This document shows, one piece after another, positions 19,828 to 25,685 of a stretch of DNA of 46,383 nucleotides. How positions within the stretch are numbered: the first letter of the stretch is position 1; every line of letters starts with the position of its first letter. The stretch covers positions 1 to 46,383 of the forward strand of contig JACQDT010000025.1 in NCBI GenBank assembly GCA_016200965.1, written 5' to 3'. Below the pieces are notes generated by a model. It was not told the origin of the DNA. It did not search any database and worked only from the letters and a program-made list of their open reading frames with translations. This DNA is from Candidatus Azambacteria bacterium. GTDB taxonomy: Bacteria; Patescibacteriota; Minisyncoccia; GWC2-36-17; WO2-46-25. The translations under genes were made by a program, and so were the position numbers.

Positions 19828-19901
19828 CCCGGGGTGGAGCAGTCTGGTAGCTCGTCGGTCTCATAAGCCGAAGGTCGCGGGTTCAAATCCCGCCCCCGGA
19901 A
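19828..19901 (+). tRNA. tRNA-fMet (CAT), initiator
   Basis: Full cloverleaf; C1xA72 mismatch in the acceptor stem; anticodon loop CTCATAA; no encoded CCA. Confidence 0.9.
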
Positions 19902-19991
19902 CACTTATTAGCTCATAACTGATAACCTATAACTTATAACTGCCTGCTCTGCCGTTATTAGTTATAAGTTATTTGTTGTTAGTTATCCTAA

Positions 19992-20063
19992 GCCAGCGTA
20001 GCTCAATGGCAGAGCGAGCGTTTCATAAGCGCTAGGTCGCAGGTCCGATTCCTGCCGCTGGTA
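19992..20063 (+). tRNA. tRNA with CAT anticodon (elongator Met or Ile2)
   Basis: GCCAGCG...CGCTGGT acceptor; loop TTCATAA. Confidence 0.85.
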
Positions 20064-20150
20064 CTCAATTAGATTTTGCCACGCGAAAGCGCCCACAAAA
20101 TCAATTGTCCCGAGCGAGTCCCGCCCTTTGAAAATATTCATATTCTTTAA

Positions 20151-20251
20151 ACATGTCGTCTGCGGGCCCGTGGTCTAGTCTGGTCTATGGCGCCTCCCTG
20201 TCACGGAGGAAATCGCCGGTTCAAATCCGGTCGGGCCCGCAGACGACATGT
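20151..20251. repeat. 20-bp perfect inverted repeat enclosing tRNA-Asp
   Basis: ACATGTCGTCTGCGGGCCCG (20151-20170) is the exact reverse complement of 20232-20251. Confidence 0.9.
20164..20239 (+). tRNA. tRNA-Asp (GTC)
   Basis: GGGCCCG...CGGGCCC acceptor; CCTCC CTGTCAC GGAGG; T-loop TTCAAAT. Confidence 0.92.
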
Positions 20252-20377: not shown

Positions 20378-20731
20378 ATGCGGCGCGGCGTGTTGATTTT
20401 GATGTGCGGTCTATTTTTCCTCTCCCTTTGTTCTTTAATGTTTTTTCTTTTCTTGGTTGATCCGGCGTATTTAAGTTTCAGCGGCTTTCTGCTTTTTTAC
20501 TTAAGCGTATTTGCGTGGGTGTGGAGCTTTTTTCTTCTTGGCGGACACTTTCTTTTGGGCGGAAGAAAAAAAAGGTCGCTGGGCGGCGCGTTTGCGCGGA
20601 GAACCGCTCTGCTTGCTTTGCTTGTAGCGACAAGTATTTTCCTTTCGCACACAAATCTTTTCTCGCTGTACGCATTCATTGCGCTTCTCGCGCTGGTTAT
20701 TTTTGCGGAATATATGTTTATGCGGCGATAA
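20378..20731 (+). CDS. Small multi-TM membrane protein
   Basis: Hydrophobic ORF upstream of pheS. Confidence 0.6.
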   Translation: MRRGVLILMCGLFFLSLCSLMFFLFLVDPAYLSFSGFLLFYLSVFAWVWSFFLLGGHFLLGGRKKRSLGGAFARRTALLALLVATSIFLSHTNLFSLYAFIALLALVIFAEYMFMRR

Positions 20732-20740
20732 TCAAACGGT

Positions 20741-21895
20741 ATGGATTCAGAAAAAAATCATTACATGGAAGTGCAATCTCCGGAAGAGCGGAAGCTTCGA
20801 GAGATGCTCGCGCATAGAAATGACGCTGAGGCGAAGCGGCTCACCCGCTTTCTTGAACTTCCCGATTTAACGCGTGATAACGCAAGCCCTTTGTTTGAAT
20901 TGGTCGGGCGCATTAAAAATATCAAGCATTTCTCCGGTTTTGACGATATTAAAGTGCCCGAAATCGTCCGGACCGATGTGAGTTTTGACTTATTCAATTT
21001 TTCTCCCGATCATCCCACCCGAAGGCCTTCCGATACGTATTACGTAGACAAGGACCATATCTTAAGGACGCATACCACGGTCATGTGGTACTACTATTTA
21101 AATGAAAAAGCCGTTAAGGAAAAGATTAAGAATAAGCAATCTGTCGGCTCGCTTTCTTACGGCAAAACATATCGTAAGGATGAGATAGATCGGAACCACA
21201 TGAACGTCTTTCATCAGATAGACGGATGGTATCTCTCTCCCAAATCGAAAGAGGTGATAACGATAGACGACCTGAAAGTGGTCCTCACCGAAATCGTGCA
21301 AGCTATTTACGGAAAGGATATCAAGTTTCGATTTAATATCGATACGTTCCCGTTCACTGATCCAAGCGTTGAGATGGAGATAGAGGTAGAGGGCAGATGG
21401 GTGGAGGTCTTGGGTTCGGGCGTTGTGCACCCCGCCGTGCTTAGAAACTTGGGCGTTGATCCGGATATCTACAACGGCTGGGCGTTCGGCTTCGGCCTCG
21501 AACGGCTCGCAATTATCAGCATGAATCTTCCCGATATCCGCCTTCTCTGGTCCGACGACCCGCGGATTAAAAAACAGCTCCGTTTAGGAAATAGCTATGT
21601 TCCCGTGAGCAAGTATCCGCCGATCACGCGGGATATTTCGTTCGTGGCGTCCGACGATTTCATCCCCAATAATTATTTCGATCTGATACGGGATCTTGGC
21701 GGCGAACTGGTTGAGGAGGTGAAGCTCACGGACAAGTACGAAAATCCGGAAAAATTCGGCGTGCATAAAACAAGCTATACCTATCGCATCGTGTATCGCA
21801 GTAACGACAGGACCTTGCTTTCAAGCGAGGTGGATCCCATCCAGAAAAAAATATACGAGGAAACCGCGAAGCAATTCCACGCCCAGCTAAGATAA
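20741..21895 (+). CDS. pheS: Single-chain phenylalanyl-tRNA synthetase-like protein: PheS catalytic core fused to C-terminal FDX-ACB domain
   Basis: HPTRRPSDTYYVDKDHILRTHTT, VEGRWVEVLGSGVVHPAVLRN, GWAFGFGLERLAI, DIRLLWSDDPR, then KYPPITRDISFV...YFDLIRDLGGELVEEVKLTDKY...TSYTYRIVYRSNDRTLLSSEV. Confidence 0.9.
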   Translation: MDSEKNHYMEVQSPEERKLREMLAHRNDAEAKRLTRFLELPDLTRDNASPLFELVGRIKNIKHFSGFDDIKVPEIVRTDVSFDLFNFSPDHPTRRPSDTYYVDKDHILRTHTTVMWYYYLNEKAVKEKIKNKQSVGSLSYGKTYRKDEIDRNHMNVFHQIDGWYLSPKSKEVITIDDLKVVLTEIVQAIYGKDIKFRFNIDTFPFTDPSVEMEIEVEGRWVEVLGSGVVHPAVLRNLGVDPDIYNGWAFGFGLERLAIISMNLPDIRLLWSDDPRIKKQLRLGNSYVPVSKYPPITRDISFVASDDFIPNNYFDLIRDLGGELVEEVKLTDKYENPEKFGVHKTSYTYRIVYRSNDRTLLSSEVDPIQKKIYEETAKQFHAQLR

Positions 21896-21941: not shown

Positions 21942-21970
21942 TGGACATACGCCCTGAATTTTGGTACAAT
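21942..21970 (+). promoter_or_regulatory. Putative gyrB promoter
   Basis: TGGACA-17 bp-TACAAT just upstream of the gyrB ATG. Confidence 0.5.
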
Positions 21971-21978
21971 TTATTCAT

Positions 21979-24063
21979 ATGGCAGTCGGTAAAAAAGACG
22001 AAAAAGCGAAGGGAAATCCTCGGTATAGCGCTGAGGATATTTATGTATTGGAGGGGCTTGAACCGGTCAGAAAGAGGCCGGGAATGTACATCGGCTCCAC
22101 CGGCCCCGACGGGCTCCATCATTTGGTGTGGGAGATTTTTGATAACTCGCGCGATGAGGCGATGGGCGGGTTTGCGACGGAGATTGAAGTGGCGCTCTTG
22201 CCCGGAAACGTAGTGCGCGTTGCCGATGACGGCCGCGGCATTCCCGTGGATATCCATCCCAAGACGAAAGTATCCGCGCTTGAGACGGCGATGACGACGC
22301 TCCACGCGGGCGGAAAATTCGGCGGGGAGTCGTACAAGGTCTCGGGCGGTCTGCACGGCGTGGGCGCGTCGGTAGTCAACGCGCTTTCCTCATGGCTTCG
22401 CGCGGAGGTGCATCGCGACGGGGGCATGTACGTGCAGGAGTACGACCGCGGAGATCCGCGCGCGAAAGTGAAAAAGGTTGGTTCTTCAAAGCGGCACGGC
22501 ACGATTATTACTTTTACCGCGGACCCCAAAATTTTTACTACCACGACGGAATTTGATTTTCTGAAAATCAAAGACCATCATCGCCAGCAGGCGTATCTGG
22601 TCAAAGGCATGAAGGTGCGGATCATCGACGCGCGGGAACACAAAGAAAAAATAGACACCTCTGTGTTTTTTTTGGACGAATTGCATCTTCCCGTGCCGAC
22701 CTATTCTTTTTATTTTGAAGGCGGGCTTTTGTCGCTGGTGAAATATCTCAACAAAGAGGAAGAGGTCCTGCACGACTCCGTTTTTTACGTGGAGAAAGAG
22801 CACGAAAAAATGATGGTGGAGGTCGCTTTGCAGTACATTGCCGATGTCACCATGCGGGAGATGAGTTTTGCAAATAATATTCACACGCCGGAGGGAGGCA
22901 TGCATCTGACCGGTTTCCGCTCGGCGCTCACGAGGATACTGAACGACTACGCGCGCAAAAACGGCATTTTGAAAGAATCCGACGACAATCTGTCGGGAGA
23001 AGACGTGCGCGAGGGACTGACCGCGGTGGTATCCGTGAAGATTCCCGATCCGCAGTTTGAGGGGCAGACGAAGGCAAAACTCGGTTCGCCCGAAGGAAGG
23101 ACGGCGACGGAAGCCGTAGTGGGAGACGCGCTTTCCGATTTTTTGGAAGAACATCCGCAAGACGCGCGCCGCATCGTGGAGCGCTGCATTCTTTCCCAAA
23201 AAGCGCGCAAAGCGGCAAAAGCCGCGCGCGAAACGGTTTTGCGCAAAGGCATTTTGGAAGGACTCGCCCTCCCGGGAAAGCTTGCCGACTGTTCCTCAAA
23301 ACGTCCGGAAGAATCGGAACTGTATATCGTGGAAGGAGATTCTGCGGGGGGCAGCGCAAAGCAGGGCCGCGACAGGAAATTCCAGGCCATACTGCCTTTA
23401 AAGGGAAAGATTTTGAACATTGAAAAGGCGCGGCTTGACCGGATGCTCGCGTTCACGGAGATCCGCGCGCTCATCATCGCCTTGGGGACGGCGATCGCGG
23501 ACGAATTTGACCTCTCCAAACTTCGGTATCATCGTGTTATCATTATGACGGACGCCGACGTGGACGGCGCGCATATCCGCACGCTTCTGCTCACGCTCTT
23601 TTACCGCTATTTCCGCCCGTTGATCGATAAAGGATATATCTATATCGCCCAGCCGCCGCTGTATCGCCTGCAAGTCGGCAAGAAAGCGGAATATGCGTAT
23701 GCCGATAAAGAAAGAGATGAAATTCTTGCGCGGGTGAAAAAAGAGGGCGCATCAAAAAAGAAAGAGGGAAAAGAGGAGAAAGAAGAGGGAGAAAAAACGG
23801 AAGGTGAATCGGAAGAGGCAGGCGAAGGGAAAGAGAAAATACGGGGCGTGAGCATTCAGCGCTACAAGGGGTTGGGTGAAATGAATCCGGAACAGCTGTG
23901 GGAAACCACGATGAATCCCGCGCGGCGCGTCATGAAGCGGGTCATGGTTGCGGACGGGCAGGAAGCCGATAAAATCTTTGAAGTGCTGATGGGATCGGAC
24001 GTCTTACCCCGCAAGCGATTCATCCAGACGCATGCAAAAAACGTAAAGAATTTAGATGTATAG
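21979..24063 (+). CDS. gyrB: DNA gyrase subunit B
   Basis: RKRPGMYIGSTGPDGLHHLVWEIFDNSRDEA, EGDSAGGSAKQGRDR, RYKGLGEMNPEQLWETTMNP. Confidence 0.97.
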   Translation: MAVGKKDEKAKGNPRYSAEDIYVLEGLEPVRKRPGMYIGSTGPDGLHHLVWEIFDNSRDEAMGGFATEIEVALLPGNVVRVADDGRGIPVDIHPKTKVSALETAMTTLHAGGKFGGESYKVSGGLHGVGASVVNALSSWLRAEVHRDGGMYVQEYDRGDPRAKVKKVGSSKRHGTIITFTADPKIFTTTTEFDFLKIKDHHRQQAYLVKGMKVRIIDAREHKEKIDTSVFFLDELHLPVPTYSFYFEGGLLSLVKYLNKEEEVLHDSVFYVEKEHEKMMVEVALQYIADVTMREMSFANNIHTPEGGMHLTGFRSALTRILNDYARKNGILKESDDNLSGEDVREGLTAVVSVKIPDPQFEGQTKAKLGSPEGRTATEAVVGDALSDFLEEHPQDARRIVERCILSQKARKAAKAARETVLRKGILEGLALPGKLADCSSKRPEESELYIVEGDSAGGSAKQGRDRKFQAILPLKGKILNIEKARLDRMLAFTEIRALIIALGTAIADEFDLSKLRYHRVIIMTDADVDGAHIRTLLLTLFYRYFRPLIDKGYIYIAQPPLYRLQVGKKAEYAYADKERDEILARVKKEGASKKKEGKEEKEEGEKTEGESEEAGEGKEKIRGVSIQRYKGLGEMNPEQLWETTMNPARRVMKRVMVADGQEADKIFEVLMGSDVLPRKRFIQTHAKNVKNLDV

Positions 24064-24933: not shown

Positions 24934-24956
24934 TTACGAGACTAAGTCTCATAAAT
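24934..24956. repeat. REP-like palindrome, copy 1 (overlaps RAYT stop)
   Basis: TTTACGAGACTAAGTCTCATAAA. Confidence 0.75.
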
Positions 24957-25685
24957 TTGTGATTTGGGGCTGTATTCTAGAGAGTGTTCTCTGACGCTTT
25001 CCTCATGTGCTTCTTGTAGCCACTCGAAAATATCTTTTTTATGTTTTTCTGGTTTTCCGAAGTAATTTAACAGAAAATCTCTTGACGTGACTGAGGGAAA
25101 GTTTTTTATACCGATGTAGTCAGGATAACTAGACCATCGGTACTGTTCCAAAAATTTCATCGCTTCCTTGCGATCGGCAACCTTCCCTTGTCTCCAGCCG
25201 GGAAATTTCAGTGCAAGTGGATTAAGATGAAGGTAATAGGGGAGATGTATAAAATGAGCTTCGCGTTTTACAAGAACCGCTTTAAAAGTTCCTTGGAATA
25301 AAGATCCAGTTCTTTGATATTTCTGATTGAAATACATTGTGTATCCTACTCCCAGTTTGTGCATAAACTCCGTAATTCCATTTTCTTTTCGCTGTTTAAG
25401 GAGTAGATGAAAATGGTTTGGCATAAGTACAAACATCAGAATTTCTACAATCAATTTCCTTCTCAATTTACGAGACTTAGTCTCGTAAATTGGTTGGTTA
25501 AGATCAAGATTTTGAAATGAGGGTTTTTTATAGAATAAGTTTCGAGCAGGTTCTTCATTGTTGAATTCAAACAAGTTATGAACAAATCGAAAATGATCCT
25601 GATCGTCTAAGAAGACAGATCGCTTTTCCACGCCGCGGTTGTAGATGTGGTAAATTTCCCCCTCTGTAAATGTAACTTTTCGCAT
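24942..25685 (-). mobile_element. REP-associated tyrosine transposase (RAYT, Y1 family)
   Basis: EGEIYHIYNRGVEKRSVF, MPNHFHLLLKQ (HxH), QRTGSLFQGTFKAVLV, YLHLNPL, YRWSSYPDYIG. Confidence 0.93.
25466..25490. repeat. REP-like palindrome, copy 2 (inside RAYT CDS)
   Basis: TTTACGAGACTTAGTCTCGTAAA. Confidence 0.75.

Follow-up and report, generated by a model that had tools for sequence, protein, structure and literature searches.

How does a bacterium charge tRNA-Phe when its phenylalanyl-tRNA synthetase looks like the single chain known from mitochondria? The question is raised by a 384-aa ORF ahead of gyrB on a contig of a Candidatus Azambacteria bacterium (JACQDT010000025.1, assembly GCA_016200965.1), whose 46,383 nucleotides are referred to below as the window. 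Phenylalanyl-tRNA synthetase (PheRS) has been described in three forms, of which the heterotetramer is stated to be conserved across every known prokaryotic species and the monomer to be mitochondrial (Klipcan et al. 2010, PMC3275996). AARS Online exemplifies the monomeric form, PheRS-M, by the structure of human FARS2 (PMC11580382). We consider it very likely, with a probability of about 0.88, that the sole PheRS of this Azambacteria genome is one chain from an old family, which has been exchanged repeatedly with pheS-pheT (pheST) at the gyrB locus.

Domain make-up and active site of the 384-aa protein

The original prediction had placed a PheS catalytic core and an FDX-ACB domain in one 384-aa chain, and the Pfam profiles bear this out. 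Residues 47–279 match the PF01409 core (197.6 bits, cut-off 19.8) and residues 290–384 are a true FDX-ACB domain by HMM (PF03147, 77.5 bits, cut-off 31.1). Neither the PheS N-terminal coiled-coil family nor any other PheT domain was found in the protein with Pfam. With FDX-ACB attached directly behind the core in a single chain, the protein has the arrangement of single-chain PheRS (PheRS-M). The coordinates of the gene, its domains and its neighbours are listed in Table 1.

Among solved structures, the top sequence relatives are the chains of human mitochondrial PheRS (E 5.6e-60), and the human FARS2 motifs given in the original prediction are present in the human chain. We built an AlphaFold2 model of the protein from 16 window and locus sequences (mean pLDDT 91). 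Its top Foldseek match in the PDB is human mitochondrial PheRS 3cmq, over the full length, with a TM of 0.80 and 31 % identity. Bacterial PheS chains match mainly the core, and a fold search of BFVD returned just weak class II aaRS matches. On the mitochondrial equivalog profile TIGR00469 (pheS_mito) the protein scores 231.2 bits, below the curated cut-off of 258.35; a copy exceeding this cut-off was seen in six of the 238 class genomes.

Table 1. Features of the single-chain PheRS locus, in window coordinates
Feature	Position	Strand	Evidence
117-aa ORF upstream of the single-chain gene	20378..20731	+	homologue in G002
Single-chain phenylalanyl-tRNA synthetase, 384 aa	20741..21895	+	Pfam domains, AF2 model, Foldseek
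PheS-type class II catalytic core (PF01409)	20879..21577	+	own-genome search, E 3.7e-59
Motif 2 segment YRKDEIDRNHMNVFHQIDGW, residues 144–163, with R145, Q159, D161	21170..21229	+	alignment of CPR copies
Phenylalanine pocket segment FPFTDPSVEMEI, residues 203–214	21347..21382	+	alignment of CPR copies
Motif 3 GWAFGFGLERLAI, residues 246–258, with A248, R255	21476..21514	+	alignment of CPR copies
FDX-ACB (B8) anticodon-binding domain (PF03147)	21608..21892	+	own-genome search, E 9.8e-23, 80.2 bits, cut-off 31.1
gyrB, conserved downstream neighbour of single-chain PheRS and of pheS-pheT in the class	21961..24063	+	locus comparison

The active site was compared across 170 CPR copies, using equivalences to T. 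thermophilus residues that were mapped within this analysis. The Azambacteria protein keeps the equivalents of His178, Arg204, Gln218, Phe258, Phe260, Ala314 and Arg321, and those of R204, Q218, F258, A314 and R321 are present in essentially all CPR copies. In motif 2, R145 and FH are invariant (170/170) and Q159 is found in 167 copies, with D or G standing where canonical enzymes have Glu (Glu220 in T. thermophilus, Glu159 in human). The pocket reads FPF in the Azambacteria protein and FPY in 150 of the 170 copies, which have Tyr at the Phe260 position. All 170 copies carry Trp (residue 116 of the 384-aa protein) at the position of Gln183 in T. thermophilus and Gln124 in human; human mitochondrial PheRS and most canonical CPR PheRS pockets have Gln there. 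In the human mitochondrial enzyme, the meta-hydroxyl of m-Tyr is bound by Gln124 and Glu159 (PMC3275996). Because both residues are replaced in CPR copies, the CPR pocket may discriminate differently, as would fit an enzyme without an editing domain.

Judged from its sequence, the 384-aa protein is predicted to have phenylalanine–tRNA ligase activity and is probably monomeric, and loss of editing would be the expected phenotype. The PheS-like class II core would activate Phe and load it on tRNA-Phe, and the C-terminal FDX-ACB domain would, like that of mitochondrial PheRS, bind the anticodon; the enzyme has no PheT editing domain. Automatic annotation may already call such genes phenylalanine–tRNA ligase.

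pheT and the distribution of the single-chain gene

The original prediction saw gyrB and no pheT next to the gene, and gyrB indeed starts 65 bp downstream. The search for pheT, which had been proposed as a check, was extended to the whole genome (865,754 bp, 42 contigs, 94 % complete) and revealed no pheS-pheT pair elsewhere. With TIGR00472 (E ≤ 1), the sole match was the FDX-ACB domain of the single-chain gene. This gene also holds the only PheS core (PF01409) and the only FDX-ACB copy (PF03147) of the genome, in which the B3/B4 editing domain (PF03483) was not found. The genome has neither a PheT partner gene nor the separate pheS and pheT of an alpha2beta2 enzyme. The B3/B4 domain was not found in the genomes G060, G118, G107 and G185 either, and it was detected in the pheST relatives G002, G003 and G042.

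We surveyed a class-wide sample of 238 genomes and a phylum sample of 380 genomes. In the class, the two gene types exclude each other almost throughout: the single-chain gene is present in 68 genomes, 67 of them without pheT, and the curated pheT cut-off was passed by 139 of the 238. The only carrier that also has pheT (G047) has its pheST on a 4.4-kb contig. Three genomes assembled into a single contig, G060 (836,881 bp), G118 (923,369 bp) and G107 (615,149 bp), carry the single-chain gene and no pheT. Since the same pattern is found in single-contig genomes of the class, a missing contig does not explain the absence of pheT, and an assembly gap is ruled out as its cause by these genomes and the class survey. 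In the phylum sample the gene is present in 33 genomes, some of them outside the class of the Azambacteria genome. A scan of named genomes recovered it in Wolfe-, Giovannoni-, Yanofsky-, Doudna-, Wildermuth-, Azam-, Specht- and Liptonbacteria, and among the nearest named relatives of the 384-aa protein the identity reaches 79 % (to a Wolfebacteria protein). From these relatives, the host is probably a CPR bacterium of the Parcubacteria type.

A pheT candidate in G185 (E 1.7e-43) was rejected, as it proved to be a 139-aa OB-fold ORF standing alone and corresponding to just PheT positions 40–153. This ORF (L286, 1441–1860) is flanked by a tyrS-like ORF and the single-chain PheRS of G185, and could possibly be a trans-acting tRNA-binding domain. 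Another contig, L112, is titled Nanoarchaeota archaeon and encodes a PheRS that shares 65 % identity with the CPR enzyme; the record is probably mislabelled or mis-binned.

In the literature searched, which left subscription journals mostly outside, we found no report of a single-chain PheRS in bacteria or phages, and an earlier description of the bacterial form may exist in those journals. The PheRS passages of a study of CPR aaRSs (PMC5370408) report a CPR PheRS beta without the B2 domain, and a single-chain PheRS is not described in them. The single-chain architecture itself is already known from mitochondria, and what appears to be new here is its bacterial branch. Many tiny bacteria of the Parcubacteria type seem to rely on one small, mitochondria-like enzyme to charge tRNA-Phe, in place of the four-subunit form regarded as universal in bacteria.

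The locus beside gyrB

Across 139 single-chain loci, gyrB was found at most 1.4 kb away in 107, in 95 of these downstream in the same orientation; some of the remaining loci are too short for gyrB to show. The order pheS-pheT-gyrB, with gyrB within about 1 kb of pheT, is present in all ten pheST relatives examined (G002, G003, G006, G013, G031, G037, G042, G057, G087 and G128). As gyrB lies beside both gene types, the single-chain gene occupies the pheST position. In the family relatives G002 and G003, the gyrB that follows pheT is 80–81 % identical to the Azambacteria gyrB, and in G002 a homologue of the 117-aa ORF (48 % over 93 aa) is found directly upstream of pheS.

Other features of the window were noticed around this locus. 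Three tRNA genes (Met, Met, Asp; 19828–20240, + strand) directly precede the PheRS region. A 247-aa ORF (24942–25685, − strand) that lies between the gyrB region and nusG reads like a REP-associated tyrosine transposase.

The swap can be delimited within one genus, where G006 carries pheST and G124 the single-chain gene. The flanking DNA of the two is 84–86 % identical on both sides. The homology extends across the start codon (ATGGCAGTTGAAAA), breaks off and restarts at the gyrB start; between these breakpoints, G006 has pheS-pheT on about 3,055 bp and G124 the single-chain gene on 1,177 bp. The first codons (MAVEN) are common to G006 pheS and the G124 single-chain gene.

The gyrB tree follows the taxonomy, with f1, f2, f7 and f8 each recovered as a clade at 100. 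About six changes of PheRS type are found on it, five of which are forced. Because the type changes on a tree that follows the taxonomy, we infer many swaps in which gyrB was not carried along. In CPR, the single-chain gene and the resident pheS-pheT have repeatedly traded places at this one locus, most likely via recombination in the conserved flanks beside gyrB. A core translation enzyme is exchanged at one locus, even inside a genus, and the natural pheST/single-chain pairs offer a way to ask what benefit a second subunit and the editing of Tyr bring.

Phylogeny, rival origins and likeness to known systems

The phylogeny of the fused protein, also named as a check in the original prediction, was inferred from the joined PheS core and FDX-ACB domain of 66 enzymes under LG+C20+F+G4 PMSF. 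For canonical enzymes the pheS core was joined to the FDX-ACB of pheT, and the eukaryotes were represented by one sequence, human. The single-chain enzymes all fall into one clade (100/100), separate from CPR pheST, which shows common ancestry with mitochondrial PheRS to the exclusion of alpha/beta PheRS. Human mitochondrial PheRS and 24 huge-phage enzymes form a clade (100/99), and the CPR single-chain enzymes, themselves a clade of moderate support (78/92), are its sister branch. SrmL attaches to the CPR branch (90/67) by a very long branch. The grouping of human with phages returned in separate trees of the core alone (99) and of FDX-ACB alone (98), and phages as one clade without human were not rejected (AU p 0.54). 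The label "mitochondrial-type" given in the original prediction is apt for the architecture and does not hold for the clade, as the 384-aa protein falls outside the one with the human enzyme. The tree is consistent with an old single-chain family of at least three branches, namely CPR bacteria, huge phages with mitochondria, and SrmL ligases.

The gene could also have arisen in situ, by a large internal deletion in the resident CPR pheS-pheT that joined the core to the last PheT domain, the mitochondrial likeness being secondary. Such a deletion would yield the observed architecture, the gene takes up exactly the pheST position next to gyrB, and the MAVEN start is common to both gene types. 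However, the grouping of CPR single-chain enzymes with CPR pheST is rejected (AU p 0.0024), the single-chain clade includes human and phage enzymes, and the many switches would demand many independent identical fusions, which makes this origin improbable. In a variant, a single old fusion in a CPR lineage may later have been exported.

It is very unlikely that the protein is an SrmL-type ligase and not a PheRS, with pheST missing merely from incompleteness of the MAG. The genome is 94 % complete, and the NCBIfam SrmL profile (NF051887) scores slightly above pheS_mito (239.8 vs 231.2 bits). Yet this score is below the curated SrmL cut-off of 300, which two real SrmLs pass with 524 and 423 bits, and SrmLs have PHQ and a His for the first pocket Phe where the 384-aa protein has FHQ and FPF; cut-off and pocket residues together rule out SrmL as its identity. 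The gene also sits at the pheST locus, and the carriers without pheT include single-contig genomes. Acquisition by bacteria from eukaryotic mitochondria, suggested by the top solved-structure relative being human mitochondrial PheRS, is hardly credible, as the human enzyme groups with huge phages and not with CPR, and a position inside CPR is rejected for it (AU p 0.023, with one eukaryotic sequence in the tree).

The preferred reading remains an old single-chain family exchanged with pheST, and its phage branch bears on the mitochondrial enzyme. Huge-phage enzymes are the closest relatives found for human mitochondrial PheRS, and one group of them is 45–52 % identical to it. Four phage PheRSs were scanned and score 263–386 bits, all above the TIGR00469 cut-off of 258. 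Phage PheRS contigs reach 536 kb, and in several the neighbours (PHROGs) are a tail tube protein, RIIA, helicase, homing endonuclease or tRNA-His guanylyltransferase; on this basis, which covers several of them, the contigs were taken as phages. Full-length single-chain PheRSs were noted on the viral contigs L207–L229 and L256–L284. The gene adjoins a tRNA-His guanylyltransferase in L212, and in L260 it has six tRNA genes and a CysRS-like ORF in its vicinity.

The RNA and DNA polymerases of mitochondria are regarded as descendants of phage-like enzymes. Tentatively, mitochondrial PheRS might derive from a single-chain PheRS of the huge-phage type and not from alphaproteobacterial pheST, and one mobile, pheST-displacing PheRS might be behind the enzymes of CPR, phages and mitochondria. 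With the phage branch at hand, the origin of mitochondrial PheRS becomes a testable question.

Of the known systems, human mitochondrial PheRS (FARS2; PheRS-M; 3cmq, 5mgu) shares with the CPR enzyme the PheS-like core and C-terminal FDX-ACB in one chain, the lack of the PheS coiled coil and of the PheT editing and core-like domains, the overall fold (TM 0.80, 31–33 % identity) and the active-site motifs. The CPR enzyme differs from it by Trp for Gln124, Asp for Glu159 and the bacterial pheST locus. Huge-phage PheRSs have the same two-domain chain and keep FHQ, FPFT and the motif 2 and 3 residues; unlike the CPR enzyme, they belong to the clade with the mitochondrial one, and the four scanned exceed the TIGR00469 cut-off. 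SrmL, a PheS-related mystery ligase, also joins a PheS-like core and an FDX-ACB-like tail in one chain, but its pocket is altered, with PHQ for FHQ and His for Phe258. SrmL-type ligases were seen on a Glutamicibacter plasmid (L175, 5013–6131) and in a 635-kb phage genome (L176, 2992–4071). The bacterial heterotetrameric PheRS has a homologous core and FDX-ACB and uses the same gyrB-side locus in the class, whereas it is encoded by two genes, is alpha2beta2 and has more PheT domains, among them the B3/B4 editing module.
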